Origin: an uncultured Roseovarius sp.
GTDB lineage: Bacteria > Pseudomonadota > Alphaproteobacteria > Rhodobacterales > Rhodobacteraceae
Length of the DNA: 64,000 nucleotides
Reading direction: 5' to 3'
NCBI RefSeq assembly: GCF_947489715.1
Contig: NZ_CANLER010000010.1
Span: 1 to 64,000 of the forward strand
Both the position numbers and the translations under genes were made by a program. The notes under the pieces were generated by a model. The model worked only from the letters and a program-made list of their open reading frames with translations. It ran no database searches and was not told the DNA's origin. Shown piece after piece: positions 10,761 through 64,000 of the stretch (positions within the stretch are counted from its first letter, which is position 1; each line of letters opens with the position of its first letter).

Positions 10761-11858
10761 ATGTCTGGAAACATAAAAATTGCGGTTGTCGGGCTTGGAA
10801 AAATGGGCATCTCCCATTTTTCATTGGTCAACGCACATCCTGATACCGAAACATTTGCCTGTGATGCTACCGGTTTTATGGTCGACATCCTGAACAAGAA
10901 CATTTCGGCCAAAATTTACAAAAAGTACGACGAAATGCTGGATAGGCAGCCTTTGGATGCCGTTGTGATCGCCACGCCCTCACGTTTGCACGGCCCGATG
11001 GTGCGTGCGGCGTTGGAAAAAGGCATTCATGTTTTTTGTGAAAAGCCGTTTTGCCTTGATCCCGCTGAAGCCGAAGAACTTTCCGCGCTGGCGGAAAGCA
11101 AGGGTCTGGTCAATCAGGTTGGATATCACAACCGATATGTCGGTGCGTTCCAGAAGATGAAAGAAATCGTGGACGTTGGCGCGCTGGGGCGGATCACGCA
11201 TATCCTGGCCGAAGCTTATGGCCCTGTCGTGCTACGTCCCAAACGCCAAACTTGGCGAACCCAAAAAGCGGAGGGTGGAGGATGTCTATACGATTATGCG
11301 GCACATCCTTTGAATCTTTTGAACTGGATTTTCGGTGCGCCCGCTAATGTCAGCGGCTCGGTCTTGAACTCGGTTTTCTCTGAAGGAATTGACGACGAGG
11401 TATTCAGCACCTTGCAGTTCAACGATGGTCCAACTGCACAGCTTTCCGTGAACTGGAGTGATGAATCACATCGTAAGATGACCACAAAGATCAGTATGAT
11501 CGGTACAAATGGCCGCATGAATGTGGATAGGCAGGAATGCCAGGTTTATCTGCGCGAGCCTGTTGCTGAATTGCCTGAATACAAGAAAGGTTGGACAGTC
11601 AAATACACGACTGAACTGACAGAAGATCCATGGTTTTATCTTCGTGGCGAAGAGTATTCCGCGCAAATTGATGATTTCATCACTGCTGTACGAGATGATC
11701 GAAAAGGCGCTGGAGAAAACAATTTCCGGTCAGCGGCAATGACCGACCGAACACTGAAACAGATTATGGATGACAGCGTGGGCGTGACACCCGCAAAACC
11801 GCAGAGTTCTGTGAAAAAACCGACTGAGCGCAAACGCGGCTGGTTCGGGCGGTCATAA
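10761..11858 (+). CDS. Gfo/Idh/MocA family oxidoreductase
   Basis: The protein has 365 residues. The nucleotide-binding motif is IKIAVVGLGKMGISHFSLVN and the EKP signature is in HVFCEKPFCLDPAEAEEL. LYDYAAHPLNLLNWIFGAP provides the family His region of the active site. By family it is an NAD(P)-dependent dehydrogenase or reductase acting on a sugar or nucleotide-sugar. It is the first gene of a three-gene operon with an uncharacterised conserved protein and a WecG/TagA-type transferase, so it may make the sugar that the transferase uses. The last 25 residues are basic and low in complexity. The stop codon is followed at once by an ATG that shares one base (TAATG). Confidence 0.88.
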   Translation: MSGNIKIAVVGLGKMGISHFSLVNAHPDTETFACDATGFMVDILNKNISAKIYKKYDEMLDRQPLDAVVIATPSRLHGPMVRAALEKGIHVFCEKPFCLDPAEAEELSALAESKGLVNQVGYHNRYVGAFQKMKEIVDVGALGRITHILAEAYGPVVLRPKRQTWRTQKAEGGGCLYDYAAHPLNLLNWIFGAPANVSGSVLNSVFSEGIDDEVFSTLQFNDGPTAQLSVNWSDESHRKMTTKISMIGTNGRMNVDRQECQVYLREPVAELPEYKKGWTVKYTTELTEDPWFYLRGEEYSAQIDDFITAVRDDRKGAGENNFRSAAMTDRTLKQIMDDSVGVTPAKPQSSVKKPTERKRGWFGRS

Positions 11859-56044: not shown

Positions 56045-56161
56045 TCAGAACTGATTGTACGGCGATTCCTGGAGGCCGGGTTCAATGAAAAACAAACAGA
56101 AAATGATGAGCGCAAAAATCACGATGATCTTTAGTATTTCGCGGCGGGAGTTGGTCATCAT
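56045..56161 (-). CDS. DltX-like microprotein (38 residues)
   Basis: The product is a single membrane helix with a short polar N-terminus (MMTNSRREILK), a helix of about 18 residues (IIVIFALIIFCLFFIEP) and a C-terminus GLQESPYNQF. The start overlaps the stop of the MBOAT gene by 4 bp (ATGA), so it is translated by coupling. Known DltX microproteins of Gram-positive dlt operons are about 45 residues, have one helix and end in a YNxF motif; the Tyr is thought to carry the acyl group passed from DltB to DltD. Here YNQF ends the protein. The gene was found by context and is too short to stand out on its own. Identity with DltX is inferred from position and the C-terminal motif. Confidence 0.7.
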   Translation of the reverse strand: MMTNSRREILKIIVIFALIIFCLFFIEPGLQESPYNQF

Positions 56162-57199
56162 GATAAGGGCCCATAATTTGCGAACCAAGATAGGCTGATC
56201 ACAACGACCCAGATAAGGATACGCGCTAGCCAGCGTTTGGTTCTCGTTTCTGGTGGCTCGAAGCTGTTTGCCAAGAGCAAACCATGCGCAATACCCCAAA
56301 CCAGATATCCCAGAGAAAGGTTGTGCCAGATACCCATGAAAACAAATGCGGCAACGGTTGCGAGTTTTGGCGGCACTCCGCGCAGGTTAAGCGGCAGAAA
56401 TATGTATTGAAGCACGAATTGAGCCATCGACCTGTGCCAGCGAGACCAGAAATCTTTGAAAGTCAGCGCTTTCCACGGGTGTTGGAAGTTGACCGGTAGG
56501 CGATATCCAAAAAGCCGGGAAAAGTGTTCCGCAATAAGTGATTGCCCCCAGAACGCCGCAAACAACTGAAGAAAAAAGCAACACCCAAATCATGAAGAAT
56601 ATGCCATGTTCGTAGCGTTCCATAATATTGGAGACGCCTCCGAAAGCTGGTGACAGTAGAACCGCCAACAGGAAGCCCAACAACATCATCCGGTAGTCCC
56701 GAAGGACTGGCTGTTCAAAGTTTCCCTTGCGGTTCTGGTCGCGAAGTAAAGTTCCCGAAAAGACCGGACCGATTACCAGCGCGGGAAGAAAAAACGCGGC
56801 GGGCAGAAGCCAATATGTTTCGCTGATCGGCAGGGTTTTCCTGCTGCTGAGCAATTGTTTGGCCGTCATGAATATGCGGATCGTCGAAAAGGAAATGGTC
56901 AGTGTTGCAACGGGCATCAGTAAGAAGAGTTGGTGAAAATCGACAAACAAAAGATTGAGCAACAGCAGGTAGGGGCCGTATTGCCGCAAGTCCGATTTGC
57001 GTGGAAACTTGTTGAACAACCAGACCATGAATGCAGCTTCCACCACGGTTAGTAATAGAAATACAGCTGCTATCGGAGCGAATATCACGACAGCGGAAAA
57101 ACCTATCACCGTCAGCACGTGGACCGCAGCCGCTCGGGGAAGCGGCAGGCAAATTAACCAAGCTAGAAGAATAAGGATGATGTGAACAAGCGGTTGCAT
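56158..57199 (-). pseudogene. DltB-like MBOAT acyltransferase gene with a frameshift at 56572-56577
   Basis: The first part (57199 downward) encodes multiple helices (LVHIILILLAWLICLPLPRA; YLLLLNLLFVDFHQLFLLMP) and ends in the wrong frame. A second frame continues as FAAFWGQSLIAEHFSRLFGY, FKDFWSRWHRSMAQFVLQYI and VFMGIWHNLSLGYLVWGIAH, the MBOAT core with its conserved His. The slip is in a run of six T on the coding strand; removing one T joins the frames into about 346 residues. MBOAT proteins such as DltB move acyl groups across the inner membrane. Strong coupling to both neighbours argues that the gene is functional and that the extra T may be a sequencing error or a slippage site. Confidence 0.75.
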
Positions 57200-58261
57200 C
57201 TATTCCGTCAACTTCATGATTTCAGACGTAAAAAAGCGTGAATAGATCAAAGCGCCGTAAGTTGAGGCATGGGTGGTGTCTGCAAAACTTTTTGCAAGTT
57301 CAGGACCTACTTCAGTGTCAAACAATCCATAGGGATGGACTAGTGGATATTCTGGAAATGCAGTTTCGATTTCTGCGATTTCTTCTTGTGAGATGCTGGT
57401 GTCGCCAAGGACTGGAAGCAGAACGACAACAACTTTGCTCCCCGCGGCCGTCAAAATCTCAGCCATCTGTCTAAGCTGGTCTACTTCAAAGCTGCGCATG
57501 GGGTCTGATGGTGAAAAGGCCAGATATTCATCCGCCTTCAGTGTCATTTTTTCGCGGCGAAGTTTTTTTTCTTCGCTTTCTTTGAATTCTATGTCGTCAT
57601 GCAAATTGTTGAAATACCAATTCGGACGTGACTGACGATGCAGCGCGTCACCCGTGCATTTATCCAAGGCACCTTTTAGCTTCATTGGCACGTAACGCAT
57701 GCCCGCATAGATATTTGCTTCAAGCTTTTGCAACAAAAGCGCCGGTAGAGATAAATAACCGCTTTCGAGCGTTCTGGGTAGCGCTGTTCCGAAATCGTTC
57801 AGTTTCGCGTTGCGGCGGATTTCAAGCAACGTATCCAGATTGGCGTAGGCGACATTGCGCGTTGGGTTAACCGGAATGTCCCATTGGCGCTGTCGCTCGG
57901 GTTTGAAATTGTACATGAGCTGAAGGAAAACGATCTCGGGCGCGCCGCGGTGCTCCAGGTAGTTTTCGACGGGCGGACGCAGTTGCGTAATCCTAGGAAA
58001 GGTCATCGCAACGCGTTCGATCACGAGATCCTTCCCGGTCTCTTTCTTGATCTGTTGCCGCATATAACCGGGGTCAAAGCCACGACCATAACGGCTTGAG
58101 CCAATAAAAAGCACGTCAGCGGCCGGAGCATCGAGCTCAGCCAATTCGTAAGCACATCTGACCAGATCTGGACCATTGAAAGCTTTGCCCCGAGGGCCAA
58201 AAAAAGCAAGTGATGCTAACAGCAGGATTAGCGCAAATGGCGCGAAATTTAATCTGGCCAT
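57200..58261 (-). CDS. DltD-like SGNH-type protein, membrane-anchored
   Basis: The protein has 353 residues. An N-terminal helix (APFALILLLASLAFFGPRG) anchors it with the domain outside. SGNH elements are VLFIGSSRYGRGFDPGYMR (Ser55 or Ser56) and the C-terminal DTTHASTYGALIYSRF (Asp328, His331). DltD-type proteins accept the acyl group from DltB/DltX and pass it to the final polymer. Its ATG overlaps the ligase stop by 13 bp, and its stop abuts the MBOAT start. The target polymer in this organism is unknown; sulfated or other surface polysaccharides are candidates. Confidence 0.8.
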   Translation of the reverse strand: MARLNFAPFALILLLASLAFFGPRGKAFNGPDLVRCAYELAELDAPAADVLFIGSSRYGRGFDPGYMRQQIKKETGKDLVIERVAMTFPRITQLRPPVENYLEHRGAPEIVFLQLMYNFKPERQRQWDIPVNPTRNVAYANLDTLLEIRRNAKLNDFGTALPRTLESGYLSLPALLLQKLEANIYAGMRYVPMKLKGALDKCTGDALHRQSRPNWYFNNLHDDIEFKESEEKKLRREKMTLKADEYLAFSPSDPMRSFEVDQLRQMAEILTAAGSKVVVVLLPVLGDTSISQEEIAEIETAFPEYPLVHPYGLFDTEVGPELAKSFADTTHASTYGALIYSRFFTSEIMKLTE

Positions 58262-59721
58262 GACATCGCTTTCAGGGCTTTTCGATCAATTTTTCCGTTC
58301 ATATTAGTTGGCATAGCATCAAGACACAAAAACCTGACTGGGTGCATATATTTTGGCAACGCATCATGCAGGCTTTCCATGTCAGAAAAAGGTTTTTCGG
58401 CCTCGTAAGCAATGGCGATCTGCCGATCGTCACCCTCGCCAAGCAGGACTGCGGCTGCAACCTTACATCCGAACACTTTTCGAAACGCTGCTTCGATGTC
58501 CCCCAGTTCAATTCGGTATCCGCGCAGCTTTATCTGGCCATCGTTTCGACCAAGGTATACAAGCTCACCCTCTCGTATGCAGACCAGATCGCCGCTGCGA
58601 TAATAACGATCGCTATCACTTTCAATAAAAGGGCTCGAGCCGGTTTCAGGTTGATACCCTTCAAAAACTTGCGGCCCGGCTAGCAGCAATTCGCCTTCGT
58701 CGCCTTCTTTCGGGCTGGTCGTAACGCCGCCCTCTGTCTCAATTGCAATGCGATTGGAACCAAATGGCGCCCCAAGAGGTACGTTGGCAAGGATCGCGTC
58801 GTCCTGGGAAAATCGCTTGTATGTAAACGCGATTGTTGCCTCTGTGGGACCATAAAGATTGTAGAGCGGCGCGCCATCTACGAGGAAATTTTGGAATGCG
58901 GATGCACTGTCGGATGGAAGCGCTTCACCACAAAAAAGGGCCATTTCCAAGCTGTGGCCGACAGGTTTGTCTCCCTGTCCTTTCGCGACCTGCGACGCCA
59001 ACATGGGTACGGAAAACCAGATATCTATTTTGTTTTTTGCCAGATACGAATGAGGCATCAGCAAATCCATTGGTCGGGCAGGGCAAATCGTACCTCCTGA
59101 ATACAGCGCTAAGAAAATGTCATGCATTGCCAAGTCAAAGCTGAGGTCAAAGAGTTGGCTGAATCGTCGCCCGCTAGGGATGCCAAGCGCGTCAGTGACC
59201 TGCGTTATGTAATGTTCTAGGCATGCATAGTTGACTGGCACCCCCTTGGGATCTCCAGTCGAGCCTGAGGTGAACATGTGATAGGCGATTGCGTTTTCGT
59301 CAGGTATCGTCTGCATCTCAGGCAATCCTTCTGGCGGTAATGGTGCCAGGAAATCACCTAGATCAATTGATTGAACAGACAGGCTTGCGGCCAACTCCTT
59401 GGTGTCAGTGTCGTTGACAATAAGGTCGACGCTCGCGGATGTTAGAATTTTTTCGTGCCTGCTTATCGGTAAGGCAGGATTTAGCGGTACAAAACGGATG
59501 CTTGAGAAGAACGCAGCCAGCACTGCCACATAGGTCTCGATGCGCCTTGTGCTGAGAATTCCCAAAACGCCAACATTGCGATTTCCCAACTCGGCTTGCA
59601 GCGCACGGATACATCCACCAAAAGCTTGGTACGACAGTCCGCTGGCACGCTTGCCCTCAATCGCCAAGCTATCCTTGTTGGCTTCAAATTGCGCCAGGAT
59701 GGATCGATGAAGCGTAGCCAT
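58249..59721 (-). CDS. DltA-like adenylating ligase (AMP-binding enzyme)
   Basis: The protein has 490 residues, the length of stand-alone DltA. Motif A3 is HMFTSGSTGDPKGVPVNY (150-164), A5 YNLYGPTEATIAFT, A7 YRSGD, A8 LGRNDGQIKLRGYRIELGD, and A10 ends in NMNGKIDRKAL with the catalytic Lys477. It should activate a carboxylic acid, most likely an amino acid, as AMP-ester and load it on the carrier protein encoded upstream. Substrate identity is not shown by the sequence; D-alanine is suggested only by the operon. The start ATG 59721 lies inside the long carrier frame. Confidence 0.85.
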   Translation of the reverse strand: MATLHRSILAQFEANKDSLAIEGKRASGLSYQAFGGCIRALQAELGNRNVGVLGILSTRRIETYVAVLAAFFSSIRFVPLNPALPISRHEKILTSASVDLIVNDTDTKELAASLSVQSIDLGDFLAPLPPEGLPEMQTIPDENAIAYHMFTSGSTGDPKGVPVNYACLEHYITQVTDALGIPSGRRFSQLFDLSFDLAMHDIFLALYSGGTICPARPMDLLMPHSYLAKNKIDIWFSVPMLASQVAKGQGDKPVGHSLEMALFCGEALPSDSASAFQNFLVDGAPLYNLYGPTEATIAFTYKRFSQDDAILANVPLGAPFGSNRIAIETEGGVTTSPKEGDEGELLLAGPQVFEGYQPETGSSPFIESDSDRYYRSGDLVCIREGELVYLGRNDGQIKLRGYRIELGDIEAAFRKVFGCKVAAAVLLGEGDDRQIAIAYEAEKPFSDMESLHDALPKYMHPVRFLCLDAMPTNMNGKIDRKALKAMSWPD

Positions 59722-59981
59722 TCGTTTAGAATATCATCTAGAAAGTCAAAGATAGCTCGGGTCGACTGGAAGTAGATCGCGTCATCATCTTCAAGATCTA
59801 CATCAAAGCTTTCGCCGACAGCCATGAAAACTGAAACAAAACTCAGGGAATCCCATTCCCGCGGGTTTCCCATCGTAGATTCCATTGTCACCGGTTGTGA
59901 CAATGTCTGAGATGATGAGGCCGATTTGAGCGCGGTTTCCACCACGTTGCAAACTGCTGCTTCATTGAAATCACCAGTCAT
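59481..59981 (-). CDS. Acyl-carrier protein (DltC-like) with displaced stop
   Basis: ATG 59981 has AGAGGA 7 bases upstream. The phosphopantetheine site is EWDSLSFVSVF with Ser45. A carrier domain would end near residue 85 (IFDFLDDIL), but the frame stays open for a further 240 bases inside the ligase gene. The tail beyond has no protein-like features. Either the carrier carries an odd extension overlapping the ligase, or a base was lost or gained near 59730-59745; a shift by one base would give TAA or TAG just before the ligase ATG. It is upstream of the ligase and should carry the activated acyl group. The 3' end given is the frame end as read. Confidence 0.6.
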   Translation of the reverse strand: MTGDFNEAAVCNVVETALKSASSSQTLSQPVTMESTMGNPREWDSLSFVSVFMAVGESFDVDLEDDDAIYFQSTRAIFDFLDDILNEWLRFIDPSWRNLKPTRIAWRLRASVPADCRTKLLVDVSVRCKPSWEIAMLAFWEFSAQGASRPMWQCWLRSSQASVLYR

Positions 59982-60804
59982 ATTTAAGTCCTCTATCGAC
60001 AACGCGCTGCGCATTTATCAAAGCATCCTGCTCTTGCGGTGCCCATTCTTTCGAATTTGGAATTTGATAGCCAGATGGCTTCTGATTTTGTTTTGATTTA
60101 TCAGCAGCTTTGGGCATTTTATCTGTGCTTGGAAGCTCAAGAAAACCCGCCATTTCAGACCAAAACTGGTCTGGCATAGCTTTGATTGTCTCGAACCGGC
60201 ATATCCGAACGCGATCGGGAAACTCTGACTGAGCATCGGCTAGTAGCAAATTTGTTTCGCGCCACAACCAGATGTTCTTCTCAATAGCGCTCCAATCATC
60301 CCAGGCTGCTTTCTCATCAGATCCACGGCGCGGGCGTATCCTGCCCATAGCGATGAATTTCTCTCTGTCTGAAAGTTCTTTGGATGCGTCGGGCCACCCA
60401 ACAGGCAGAGGATCTTCCCCCAGTATTGTGGTCGATGATCTGACGAACGCGCCACATTCGCGGACGATACCGATCATCCTGCTTTGTGGATTTTGATTCA
60501 GGATCTCGCTCGCGATCGTAGAATTATAGTAGGCCACATCGATTAGACGATTTACGTTTGGCAAAATGGCGAGTTCTGCAAATATTTTAGCATTGCGCTT
60601 CTGGGCAACAATATTTGCTGCCATTTTGGGTTTCCCATAGGCTTGCGCATTTTCAAGATTGATCAATGGCAGCAGAGGCTTTGCACCCTTTTCCGCGCCG
60701 ATATACCCTTCGTGGCATGCTGCTATGCCGTCAACAGAATTAAGTGTCGCCGCGAGGAATGTCGTCGCGGTTCGCCCGGTACTAGCGATGAAATCAAATT
60801 GCAT
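59971..60804 (-). CDS. Sulfotransferase-like P-loop protein
   Basis: The protein has 277 residues. The N-terminus DFIASTGRTATTFLAATLNS has the phosphate-binding loop of sulfotransferase-like proteins, and RMIGIVRECGAFVRSSTTIL fits the 3'-phosphate region. ATG 60804 puts the loop at the N-terminus; the frame reaches ATG 60846, and neither start has a clear ribosome site. It overlaps the carrier start by 11 bp and so heads the Dlt-like operon, which hints that the acylated polymer may also be sulfated. PAPS dependence is not proven. Confidence 0.65.
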   Translation of the reverse strand: MQFDFIASTGRTATTFLAATLNSVDGIAACHEGYIGAEKGAKPLLPLINLENAQAYGKPKMAANIVAQKRNAKIFAELAILPNVNRLIDVAYYNSTIASEILNQNPQSRMIGIVRECGAFVRSSTTILGEDPLPVGWPDASKELSDREKFIAMGRIRPRRGSDEKAAWDDWSAIEKNIWLWRETNLLLADAQSEFPDRVRICRFETIKAMPDQFWSEMAGFLELPSTDKMPKAADKSKQNQKPSGYQIPNSKEWAPQEQDALINAQRVVDRGLKYDW

Positions 60805-60875
60805 GACGACTAAAACAACCAACCTCGAGATGTCGCCCTTATACATTTAGAATTCTGTCAAAAACCAGAAGCATT

Positions 60876-61085
60876 TTAGCCATTTTTGGGAATATCAATC
60901 AGGCTATTTGCCCGGCTATCAAAGTATTGGACCATATGGTTGAATCTATCATCCGCTTGATAGCCTTCCACACCGCTAGACCAAGCGTAATCAAAGTAAA
61001 GCCCGGTCTTGCTCAGACCACCTCGCTCAAGAATGTCTAACCGGTACTTTCGATCGAAAATTACCCTTCGATTAGCTAGCAGCAT
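60876..61085 (-). CDS. Possible small protein of unknown function
   Basis: A 69-codon frame from ATG 61085 overlaps the 3' end of the GGDEF-EAL gene by 14 bp. It encodes a polar sequence with many aromatic residues (RVIFDRKYRLDILERGGLSK; GLYFDYAWSSGVEGYQADDR). No ribosome site was seen. It may be a real small gene or the remnant of a longer one. No function is suggested. Confidence 0.3.
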   Translation of the reverse strand: MLLANRRVIFDRKYRLDILERGGLSKTGLYFDYAWSSGVEGYQADDRFNHMVQYFDSRANSLIDIPKNG

Positions 61086-63078
61086 TTGGTTTAGGGTAAT
61101 CCCGAATTTGAAACGCGTTTGCCAAAGCCTTTTCTGGCAACTCCGGACGCCCATAGAAAAACCCTTGGGCCCGACGTGCCCCCAGGTCAAAGACAATTTC
61201 CGCCTGCAACTGCGTTTCAATACCTTCAACGACGATTTCAAGTTCGAGATTTTTTGCGATCTCGAAGACCGATGCCAACATGAGCTTCGCTTTCGAAGAA
61301 GTCTCTAGCTCTTCAACAAGAGAGCGATCCACCTTCAATTCGTCTGCGACCATCGCGCGCAGATAAGCCAAGGAGGAAAACCCTGTTCCAAAATCGTCGA
61401 TCGAGATCTTGCAACCCAGCCTTTTGAGGCCAAGAATAATGATCTTGGCGTGCTCCCAGTCCCGCATTTCGGTGCTTTCGGTGATCTCGAGTGTCAGGAG
61501 ATCGGGGCGAAGATCCGATCTCCACAAGGCGTGTTCTACGGTTTTGATAATTTTCCGCGAACTGAAATGAAGCGCCGATAAATTTACGCTGACTGCGAAG
61601 TCAGTGTTGTGCTGTTCATTCCAATCTGCAATTAGCCTCGCAGCTTGATTCAACACGAATGTGTCGACCCCAATGACAAGGCCGCTTTCTTCGGCCAACA
61701 AGATAAAGTCGCCAGGATTGACCAACTTTCCATTGCGTCGCCAGCGAACGAGGGCTTCGAAGCCGTAAGGTTCTCCGTTCGGTAAGAGCACTTTTGGTTG
61801 AAGATGCACTTCCAGATCGCCTGTTGAGATCGCTTTGGGTAGTTCTTCCAACATGGCGCGTCGCTCAAGAAAACGCTGTTCGAGTTCCAAGTCGTAAACC
61901 GTGAAGCAGTTTCGTCCGTTCGCCTTCGATGCGTAGAGGGCAAAATCCGTTACGCGTGAAAGATCATCCACAGATGCGGACATGGCCCCTTTGACTTGGG
62001 TTGTCGTGGCAAGCCCGATGCTGATGCTGAATTCGATTGTTTCGCCGTCAAAGATAAGTGGGGAAGCCACCTCTGAAATCAAGTGTTCGCAAAGAGTTTT
62101 GAGAACGCCGATGTCATCCGTCGGTGTAACGATGGCAAATTCATCGCCTCCAAGCCGTGCAGCAAATCCGCCGTTGTCGCGGGCTGATTTCCTCAATACA
62201 TGCCCAACACGTTGCAAGACGGCATCTCCGGCTGCATGACCAAATGTGTCGTTAACAGTTTTGAACTCGTCTAGATCGATGGAAAGTAATGCGACTGGTG
62301 TACGATTCTTTTCAAGCATACGTTGAAGGCGTTCCTGAAACTGGACGCGGTTCGGGAGCTCCGTTAAGGGATCGAAAAAAGCCAGAAATTCGACACGTTT
62401 CTCGGCCCGTTCGCGCGCACGACGCCCCAGAACCTCAAGGCGCAGTAACACCAGCGCAATGCCGCCAACCATGGTCAGCCCAGCCAGAGATCCAAGCATG
62501 ATTACTTGCTGTTTCTTGACAACCTTGGTTTGGATGTACATTACGTCGTCCGCATGTCGGCGCATTTCATCGAGCATTTGAACCAATTTGCTACGGGCGT
62601 TTTCAGACGCAAAAAGCAAATCGACAAAGAAGCCCGCAAGATCGGCATAGTCATTCGCAATCGCACCATCGGCGAGCTCAACTATCTCCTCTAGAGCCTC
62701 AAGAGATGCAGTGCCGTTTTCAAAGGCACGATCCTTTTTTAGAATACGCCTGAGATGGTCTGTGCGGACGTAGATGACATCTGCGGCCTCACGAAATGCC
62801 ATGTCTAACTCTGGCGTCACATTATTCGCATTCAAGGCTCTTTGCGTGGCAAGTATCAGCCTTTGAATGTCACTGATAGCGACATAGCCGTTGCGAATCT
62901 GACGATCTTCGAAGACGGCGTGGGTCCTGCCGAGCTGAGTAACGACAGACTGCGTGTAGAGTCCGGCTCCCACACAAAGAACCATAAGAAATCCAATAGA
63001 GGCAAAAAAGCCGATGCTCGAAGACAGTGCATCGAGGATCTTTTGATGCCGGATATTTTTCCCAGCAAAGCTTGGCAT
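61072..63078 (-). CDS. Membrane-bound GGDEF-EAL protein (c-di-GMP turnover)
   Basis: The protein has 668 residues. Two membrane helices (SIGFFASIGFLMVLCVGAGL; IMLGSLAGLTMVGGIALVLL) flank a periplasmic helical sensor. The GGDEF domain keeps RLGGDEFAIV, and the EAL domain keeps GFEALVRW, TLEITEST, IDDFGTGFSSLAYLRAM and VVEGIET, so both activities are possible on motif grounds. ATG 63078 (MPSFAGKN) is preferred over TTG 63123 because it avoids overlap with the upstream gene. The partner periplasmic protein is 7 bp upstream. c-di-GMP often controls exopolysaccharide production, which fits the window. Confidence 0.9.
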   Translation of the reverse strand: MPSFAGKNIRHQKILDALSSSIGFFASIGFLMVLCVGAGLYTQSVVTQLGRTHAVFEDRQIRNGYVAISDIQRLILATQRALNANNVTPELDMAFREAADVIYVRTDHLRRILKKDRAFENGTASLEALEEIVELADGAIANDYADLAGFFVDLLFASENARSKLVQMLDEMRRHADDVMYIQTKVVKKQQVIMLGSLAGLTMVGGIALVLLRLEVLGRRARERAEKRVEFLAFFDPLTELPNRVQFQERLQRMLEKNRTPVALLSIDLDEFKTVNDTFGHAAGDAVLQRVGHVLRKSARDNGGFAARLGGDEFAIVTPTDDIGVLKTLCEHLISEVASPLIFDGETIEFSISIGLATTTQVKGAMSASVDDLSRVTDFALYASKANGRNCFTVYDLELEQRFLERRAMLEELPKAISTGDLEVHLQPKVLLPNGEPYGFEALVRWRRNGKLVNPGDFILLAEESGLVIGVDTFVLNQAARLIADWNEQHNTDFAVSVNLSALHFSSRKIIKTVEHALWRSDLRPDLLTLEITESTEMRDWEHAKIIILGLKRLGCKISIDDFGTGFSSLAYLRAMVADELKVDRSLVEELETSSKAKLMLASVFEIAKNLELEIVVEGIETQLQAEIVFDLGARRAQGFFYGRPELPEKALANAFQIRDYPKPNAAS

Positions 63079-63085
63079 TGGTGTA

Positions 63086-63595
63086 TTAGTTGCCTGCTTC
63101 GATACGGGCCGCCATCCAAACAAAGTTCGATTCAGATGTCAGAGAAGATGTGGCGAATGTTTCCGCATCAATGACGAATTGTATAGGGCCACGGGCGCGT
63201 CGGCTGTGTGCCCGACCATCGACTCGGGTGGCAACAAGAATATCAACTGAATTGATGAGCTCTTGAGACATCGTCGTCTTGTAGTCGTTTTCTGCAGTTA
63301 CGAGAATGGAGGCGGCGCGGTCCAGCCCGTGCGCGGACAGGATTTCAGACAATAGAACACCCTCAAACTTAGCGGGTTCCTCTCGCCAAGGAGTTTTTGT
63401 CGTGAGGCTGTAAGTGGCGAATTTTTCAAGCTCTGAAGGAGTGTAACTAGTTTCGCTACCATCGTGACTGACAATAATCAGTGTCGCCTTGGTATGATTG
63501 ATTGGGTCGAGTTCCGCGGGGACGGGCGTGCCGGCCAGAGCAGGTTGCATCAGCATTGAAAGTGTCGCTATTGCTGCAATTATAGTTGAGCGCAT
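63086..63595 (-). CDS. Exported protein with molybdopterin-oxidoreductase-like fold
   Basis: The protein has 169 residues. GAGGA 9 bases before ATG 63595 was the reason to choose it over ATG 63610. The signal peptide (MRSTIIAAIATLSMLMQPALA) is followed by a small domain with SYTPSELEKFATYSLTTKTP, KFEGVLLSEILSAHGLDRAA and ESNFVWMAARIEAGN. The pattern resembles the molybdopterin-binding oxidoreductase domain but lacks obvious cofactor-binding residues. It probably senses or binds a ligand in the periplasm and feeds the GGDEF-EAL protein. Confidence 0.75.
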   Translation of the reverse strand: MRSTIIAAIATLSMLMQPALAGTPVPAELDPINHTKATLIIVSHDGSETSYTPSELEKFATYSLTTKTPWREEPAKFEGVLLSEILSAHGLDRAASILVTAENDYKTTMSQELINSVDILVATRVDGRAHSRRARGPIQFVIDAETFATSSLTSESNFVWMAARIEAGN

Positions 63596-64000
63596 GAGTA
63601 ATTTCCTCATTGATGTCCAGGACAGTACTCAACGATACGAAACTGCTGTTAATCGTTGGTTTTAAGCGGGCAGATCTGATTCAGAAAAAACGCACAATTC
63701 GTCTAAACTGTGATGCGGCGCCGCAATGCAAAATGAGGTAACTTCAAATATACCGTTTTTCCGATCATGCTAACGCTTTTAGTGAGCTGTGTCTGACGTC
63801 TGCACGTGTTGGAGGAAATTGTGGGTTTAGCTGTCCGTCATCAAACGCTCGGATGTTGTCAGACAAATTCGAACTAATCTGACGGTGCCCGTTTTCCCTG
63901 TGGCGCCAAAGATGATGCAACCTTTGGGGGAAATTAAACGAAAAAGGAGCTCGCAAAGCTTACCCCACGCTTACCCACACAAAAAGGGCTGCGCAGCAGA
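63596..64000. other. Intergenic region at the right edge
   Basis: About 400 bp without a supported gene. Short frames occur, including a minus-strand one that enters from the right edge and ends near 63939, but none has family features. The promoter of the exported-protein and GGDEF-EAL pair should be near 63620-63720. Confidence 0.4.
63958..63978. repeat. Short direct repeat at right edge
   Basis: GCTTACCCCAC (63958-63968) and GCTTACCCAC (63969-63978) stand head to tail. They may be iterons, a regulator site, or the end of a mobile element beyond the window; the sequence seen is too short to decide. Confidence 0.4.

Follow-up and report, generated by a model that had tools for sequence, protein, structure and literature searches.

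Does a Gram-negative bacterium carry a surface-acylation machine of the kind that D-alanylates teichoic acid in Gram-positive bacteria, and is its own copy still in working order? This question is raised by a gene cluster in the 64,000-nucleotide stretch of contig NZ_CANLER010000010.1 analyzed here (hereafter the window), which comes from an uncultured Roseovarius sp. The cluster encodes a carrier protein, an adenylating ligase, an SGNH protein, a membrane-bound O-acyltransferase (MBOAT), and a one-helix microprotein, the same five kinds of parts as the Gram-positive dlt operon (DltA, DltB, DltC, DltD, and DltX). A preliminary description of the window had presented it as a complete Dlt-like acylation operon with a DltX-like microprotein. 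The results below make it quite likely that the cluster is an operon for Dlt-like aminoacyl transfer in a Gram-negative host, that it belongs to a subfamily without a name that could be found, and that the copy in the window is probably decaying.

Organization of the operon

The five kinds of parts lie on the minus strand, overlap one another, and occur in the order and at the positions described: carrier, ligase, SGNH protein, MBOAT, and microprotein. The operon had been drawn too narrowly, however, as a sulfotransferase-like gene (60846–59971) directly upstream of the carrier gene, which it overlaps, also belongs to it. Nor is the operon complete in this genome, where the MBOAT is split between two frames and the stop codon of the carrier gene is gone. 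The features are given below in the order of transcription, with the evidence for each in parentheses.

59971..60846, minus strand: 291-aa sulfotransferase-like protein, encoded at the head of the operon (alignment; PF13469 in relatives; AlphaFold and Foldseek)
59481..59981, minus strand: carrier protein with its serine in WDSL (conserved part to about 59721; frame open to 59481 over the ligase gene)
58249..59721, minus strand: DltA-like adenylating ligase, 490 aa (Pfam AMP-binding; TIGR01734; motif residues)
57200..58261, minus strand: SGNH protein, 353 aa, with an N-terminal helix and a DltD-like predicted fold (predicted structure; alignment)
56387..57199, minus strand: N-terminal part of the MBOAT (conserved to about 56546–56574, then out of frame to a stop at 56387)
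56158..56565, minus strand: C-terminal part of the MBOAT in another frame (PF03062, 2e-16; histidines of RWHRSM and IWHNLS)
56045..56161, minus strand: one-helix microprotein, 38 aa, ending in SPYNQF (start overlaps the MBOAT stop, ATGA)

Conservation and distribution

Fifteen relatives of the operon were found, one in another genome of the same family (G138, locus L023) and 14 on contigs labeled mostly as Alphaproteobacteria. Two of 394 genomes of the family encode a relative of the SGNH protein at 1e-5, the window's own and G138, and the latter holds the whole operon, including a 36-aa open reading frame (ORF) ending in APYVGF. The other relatives came from one pattern-limited scan of the genome collection, in which the bait was an alignment of the L023 MBOAT with the C-terminal part of the window MBOAT. 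Sixty stretches were matched and 14 of them encode relatives, a number that is a lower bound because the scan was pattern-limited. The MBOAT was the only bait; the other genes of the operon came along unselected. The contigs are assigned to Tateyamaria, Qipengyuania, Aurantiacibacter, Hellea, Parasphingopyxis, Sulfitobacter, a Bugula symbiont, Hyphomicrobiales, Erythrobacteraceae, and an Alcanivoracaceae metagenome-assembled genome (MAG), together with four MAG contigs whose labels are broad or doubtful.

Wherever the upstream part can be seen (15 of 15 loci, the window's among them), the sulfotransferase-like gene is followed by the carrier and then by the DltA-like ligase. The downstream half in the relatives encodes the SGNH protein, an MBOAT resembling DltB, and the short one-helix protein; gene order differs in L034, where the microprotein still comes after the MBOAT. 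The operon is real and conserved. It is also rare and patchy; a profile of the sulfotransferase-like protein finds three of 367 genomes of the class at 1e-15 (the window's own, G138, and G579).

L030 and L031 are near copies and the L033 fragment appears alike by eye, with labels of Alphaproteobacteria and Bryobacterales, and L032 is labeled Acidimicrobiia. The MAG labels of L030 to L033 may be wrong owing to binning errors and are therefore not to be taken as a wide host range.

Searches with the window ligase matched six of 84 genomes of the genus at 1e-40, its own included, and none of the other five held a close ligase (31–36% identity). Four of the five matches are long frames resembling nonribosomal peptide synthetases (NRPSs; 1,100–3,880 aa), and none of the ORFs of at least 60 aa in 4.2 kb around the fifth (G062, 538 aa) was evidently an MBOAT or a sulfotransferase. 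The ligase matched nine of 394 genomes of the family at 1e-60 and four of 385 of the class; apart from its own genome, G138, and G358, these were mostly frames of 1,229–1,330 aa, and no such operon was seen by eye at L024, L026, L027, and L028 in the first 60 residues of ORFs of at least 150 aa. A scan of genome contigs with the window ligase alone yielded no relative. Among plasmids, the SGNH protein had no match, the L023 MBOAT matched 113 records, none of which reached 60% identity or 80% coverage of the query, and the MBOAT of a second Dlt-like operon treated below (L025) matched 34 records, all below 60% identity. No published description of the operon was found in the open-licence literature, a search that most subscription journals fall outside.

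The microprotein

Conservation of the short ORF after the MBOAT in related operons had been proposed as a check on the Dlt-like interpretation, and the ORF is present in all 15 loci that reach that point. The ending PYxx[FY] occurs in 15 of the 3,293 ORFs with 25 aa or more that were listed for the 16 loci. Every one of these 15 is the microprotein ORF, and each comes from a different locus; the remaining locus is L032, whose contig ends inside the MBOAT. Chance is excluded as a source of the microprotein ORF, because no other of the 3,293 ORFs ends in this way. In 13 of the 14 tabulated loci the start codon of the ORF and the stop codon of the MBOAT gene overlap in the sequence ATGA; L038 has GTGA or a later ATG. 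With about 36–47 codons, the ORF is easily overlooked in annotation and is recognizable by its position and tail.

In an alignment of 14 microproteins (L033 left out), Pro-Tyr is invariant and the last residue is Phe in 12 rows and Tyr in two. The YNxF signature noted for the window is thus too narrow: its C-terminal Tyr is kept in 14/14 rows, but the Asn after it is found in just 7/14, and what is conserved is PYxx[FY]. In every row a single hydrophobic stretch is preceded by one to three Lys/Arg and followed by none or one, a pattern that fits a microprotein whose C-terminus would lie outside.

The ligase and the carrier

The window ligase matches Pfam AMP-binding at 2.3e-50, and its best model is amino-acid adenylation TIGR01733 (6.2e-79; 266 bits versus a cut-off of 317). 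A profile of 15 ligases matches the DltA structures 3dhv and 3fcc at about 4e-91 (4.1e-91), and several amino-acid NRPS adenylation proteins match it as strongly as DltA or more. The ligases are 23–27% identical to one DltA. In a ligase tree, the rows fall into two clades (97/97 and 93/94), and the place of the DltA row is uninformative because of its very long branch.

Comparison of the substrate pocket with that of DltA, also suggested earlier, shows the window ligase to differ from one DltA at four of ten positions. The ten residues, assigned by motif, read DLHFLCLIAK in the window and in six of the nine other members of its clade; the remaining three (L042, L035, and L039) show small changes. 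The other clade (five rows) has D(F/V)H(I/V)(I/M)NTVAK, and L. oris DltA has DLMVLCTVAK. An invariant His stands where L. oris DltA has Met, at what we take to be position 239. The residues corresponding to the amino-group-binding Asp and to the A10 Lys are kept in 15/15 ligases, which favors an alpha-amino acid, perhaps a small one, as the probable substrate. The carrier serine is likewise kept in 15/15 loci.

The MBOAT and the SGNH protein

The MBOAT profile matches the DltB structure 6bug at 1.5e-28, and the DltB model TIGR04091 matches 14/14 MBOATs at E up to 0.01. H256 and H293 are invariant in the 14 rows, and there is no fused Tyr tail at the C-terminus. The predicted structure of the SGNH protein has a predicted local distance difference test (pLDDT) score of 89.2, and its nine best matches in the PDB by Foldseek are all DltD chains (E 5e-6 to 2e-3), with PatB at rank 33. 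Its catalytic motifs are G54-x-S56 and D328-x-x-H331, in which Ser56 and His331 do not vary and Asp328 is nearly constant, with Asn in its place in L034. Cys36 and Cys202 are invariant in 15/15 rows, a pair that hints at an oxidizing compartment and perhaps at a disulfide.

The sulfotransferase-like gene

PF13469 (Sulfotransfer_3) matches 14 of the 15 members at E up to 1, the best at 2.9e-9. The loop STGRTAT and the pair R-x7-S (R129 and S137) are invariant in 15/15 rows; we take the former to be the 5' loop and the latter to be a motif of sulfotransferases dependent on 3'-phosphoadenosine 5'-phosphosulfate (PAPS). An AlphaFold model (pLDDT 82.6) had 26 Foldseek matches at E ≤0.001, all of them sulfotransferases (best 4.4e-6; template modeling (TM) score 0.37–0.48), with tyrosylprotein sulfotransferases first and CurM tenth; in a search of PDB sequences with the profile, CurM was the best match and was not significant (E 0.054). 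The protein is thus predicted to have a sulfotransferase fold together with the 5' loop and R-x7-S. It is probably cytoplasmic, since no leader or membrane helix was seen in the predicted structure. PAPS is located in the cytoplasm.

The relative in G579 (L046, 5303–6142; E 2.2e-49) lies in a cluster that looks by eye like one for nonulosonic acid or a similar sugar.

A second Dlt-like operon

A different operon was found in another genome of the same family (G358, locus L025, 7274–12768, minus strand), with genes for an SGNH protein, a microprotein, an MBOAT, a ligase, a carrier, and a sulfotransferase, as in the window operon. The SGNH gene stops at 11392, and the 49-aa microprotein (11246–11395) ends in FRYQNF. 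Its MBOAT matches TIGR04091 at 2.6e-50, below the cut-off but closer to the DltB model than the window-type MBOATs; its sulfotransferase is NoeE-like (2.8e-18, below cut-off); and its ligase is 38% identical to the window ligase over 382 residues. L025 differs from the window operon in its canonical FRYQNF tail, its gene order, and its other kind of sulfotransferase. The L025 ligase matched four of 295 genomes of the family at 1e-80 without another free-standing match, the other three lying in frames of 1,229–1,267 aa. A sulfotransferase beside Dlt-like genes is therefore not the quirk of one lineage, although L025 is a single case and thin evidence.

State of the operon in the window

The MBOAT had been read as a single gene from 57199. 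The start is right, but the frame from 57199 stops at 56387, and a second frame (56565–56158) holds both conserved histidines and, alone of the two, matches Pfam MBOAT. The frame change was seen by tblastn with the MBOATs of four relatives (L042, L036, L040, and L041); the tightest bounds come from the nearest, L042, which matched the first frame down to 56546 and the second from 56574, in a T-rich stretch. The MBOAT is one unbroken frame in 13/13 full-length relatives (L023, L029, L030, L031, and L034–L042); L032 and L033, cut by contig ends, are outside this count and the MBOAT alignment. The window carrier has 121 residues after WDS, versus 40–42 in 14/14 relatives. Its frame has no stop at the ligase start and runs about 79 extra residues into the ligase gene, to 59481.

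Two explanations of these anomalies were weighed. There is about an even chance that only a relic of the operon is left in this genome, with the carrier stop gone, the MBOAT frame broken, and no acyl transfer, while its intact relatives carry out that transfer. Both anomalies, set against the unbroken MBOATs and short carriers of the relatives, point this way, as does the genome's lack of another such MBOAT: at E 0.001 its one other PF03062 match lies in a 543-aa frame on contig C1. Against a relic, the other four genes (for the ligase, the SGNH protein, the sulfotransferase-like protein, and the microprotein) have their full length and encode the expected key residues, and the tailed carrier may still work. 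The T-rich stretch allows for a sequencing or assembly error instead, leaving the operon functional in the organism. An error is a serious though lesser possibility, consistent with the place of the frame change, the intact look of the genes other than the carrier, and an assembly, in 40 contigs, rated 99.92% complete. The carrier anomaly, being a second change of a different kind, tells against an error. Because the two anomalies differ in kind, recent decay is somewhat likelier than a sequencing error, and the window operon is probably a decaying copy. Any decay would be recent, because the four full-length genes retain their conserved or catalytic residues. A programmed frameshift as the cause of the split MBOAT is judged unlikely, because all 13 full-length relatives are single-frame.

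Comparison with known systems

Several results weigh against a Dlt-like interpretation. The window ligase matches TIGR01734 at 1.7e-60 but with 205 bits, versus the DltA cut-off of 560, and reaches 212 bits with NF003417, versus 476. The TIGR04091 scores of the MBOATs (79.8 bits for L042 and 66.4 for the C-terminal part in the window) lie below the equivalog cut-off of 375. DltX models matched 0/14 microproteins in Pfam and 0/14 in NCBIfam at E up to 10, in a test where weak matches are mostly lost to the HMMER filters. All 14 rows also lack the initial Phe of FXYXXF, the DltX motif given in the accessible part of the published account (PMC12148441). With the ligase, MBOAT, and microprotein models and FXYXXF taken as four defining features, the operon is not a Dlt system by strict tests. 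In addition, the net charge before the microprotein helix is negative in two of 14 rows (L039 and L034), contrary to a simple positive-inside rule. The query-normalized TM scores between the SGNH protein and DltD are low (0.34–0.44), its profile found nothing below E 0.5 and no DltD among PDB sequences, and its best Pfam matches are weak (PF19040 SGNH, 0.012; ALGX, 0.0032). The window's own sulfotransferase-like protein matches PF13469 at E 0.016, below cut-off, and the split MBOAT and carrier read-on may mean that the pathway is dead in this genome.

The operon nevertheless in all likelihood works like Dlt, judging by analogy. It shares with the Gram-positive system a DltB-profile MBOAT, an SGNH protein of predicted DltD fold, and a DltA-like ligase, and this likeness upholds the Dlt-like architecture first described and probably the chemistry, though not completeness in the window genome. 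The name "DltX-like" is apt for a single-helix protein with Tyr near the C-terminus (the fourth residue from it, as in DltX) that is encoded with an MBOAT and an SGNH protein; it does not extend to the FXYXXF tail or to a match with DltX models. Unlike Gram-positive dlt, the operon has an extra sulfotransferase-like gene, Gram-negative hosts, a ligase below the equivalog cut-off, and a microprotein that ends in PYxx[FY].

Dlt-type systems in Gram-negative bacteria are already known from the D-alanylation-type loci of Dickeya and Pectobacterium (dlt) and Bordetella (dra), for which the acceptor is unidentified or probably lipopolysaccharide according to the accessible parts of the reports (PMC5541007, PMC9410548). 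Those parts mention no sulfotransferase, and the comparison made here of these loci with the window operon covers the types of gene. The diverged microprotein tail and the constant sulfotransferase make the operon a new variant. PatA/PatB and AlgI-type acetylation also pair an MBOAT with an SGNH protein, and the available text of PMC12148441 describes an acyl-Tyr mechanism for DltX and PatA like the one proposed here. In PatA/PatB and AlgI, however, the MBOAT itself carries the Tyr motif as a fusion, acyl-coenzyme A (acyl-CoA) is the donor, and there is no carrier protein, whereas the window operon has a free microprotein and a carrier.

Proposed mechanism and alternatives

The pathway proposed here, including its acyl group, its acceptor, and the role of sulfation, is drawn by analogy with Dlt. 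The ligase would adenylate an alpha-amino acid and load it onto the carrier. The MBOAT would move the aminoacyl group across the membrane to the Tyr in the C-terminal region of the microprotein, from which the DltD-like SGNH protein would take it to esterify a surface glycan. It is reasonable to infer, as the preliminary description did, that the acceptor cannot be teichoic acid. The sulfotransferase-like enzyme would probably sulfate the precursor of the same glycan or the carrier-bound group. Dlt-like transfer is thus probably combined with sulfation, and the final polymer would bear both an amino-acid ester and sulfate.

Other readings of the chemistry and of the sulfotransferase-like gene are less probable. 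The gene might merely share a promoter with an acyl pathway to which it is unrelated, as could be suggested by its relative in the sugar-biosynthesis-like cluster of G579, where no MBOAT was recognized. We regard this as unlikely, since the gene adjoins the carrier in 15/15 loci across two ligase clades and another kind of sulfotransferase sits in the different operon L025. It is a more doubtful proposition still that the sulfotransferase acts on the carrier-bound aminoacyl group, so that the machine would export a sulfated amino acid and give the surface a more negative or zwitterionic character rather than a more positive one. In a comparable way, sulfotransferases of the CurM type use hydroxyacyl chains bound to a carrier. 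If true, this would amount to D-alanylation with inverted charge, arisen at least twice in this bacterial family. Very improbable is the transfer of acetyl or another fatty-acyl group of the PatA/AlgI kind in place of an aminoacyl group. Other MBOAT-SGNH pathways do take acyl-CoA as the donor, as stated in the part of PMC12148441 available. Here, however, the window ligase scores best with an amino-acid adenylation model, albeit below its cut-off, every ligase retains the Asp for the alpha-amino group, a carrier gene is present in 15/15 loci, and the MBOATs match DltB without a fused Tyr tail. Aminoacyl transfer of the Dlt type thus remains the preferred reading.

Neighboring genes

Downstream of the operon, Pfam identifies a class I/II aminotransferase (55938–54754); no counterpart was noticed at the same place in the ORF lists of the relatives, for which no dedicated search was made. 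Just upstream on the same strand (61072–63610) are a GGDEF-EAL protein and a small unassigned protein that looks secreted by eye. Control of the operon by cyclic di-GMP is conceivable.

Implications

The free-standing acyl-Tyr microprotein, known from Gram-positive DltX, would be extended by these findings to a conserved Gram-negative operon. Its tail departs from the published FXYXXF and so offers a test of what the shuttle truly needs. The presence of a sulfotransferase alongside two different Dlt-like operons points to a polymer that would carry both an amino-acid ester and sulfate, and that can be searched for in cultured relatives.

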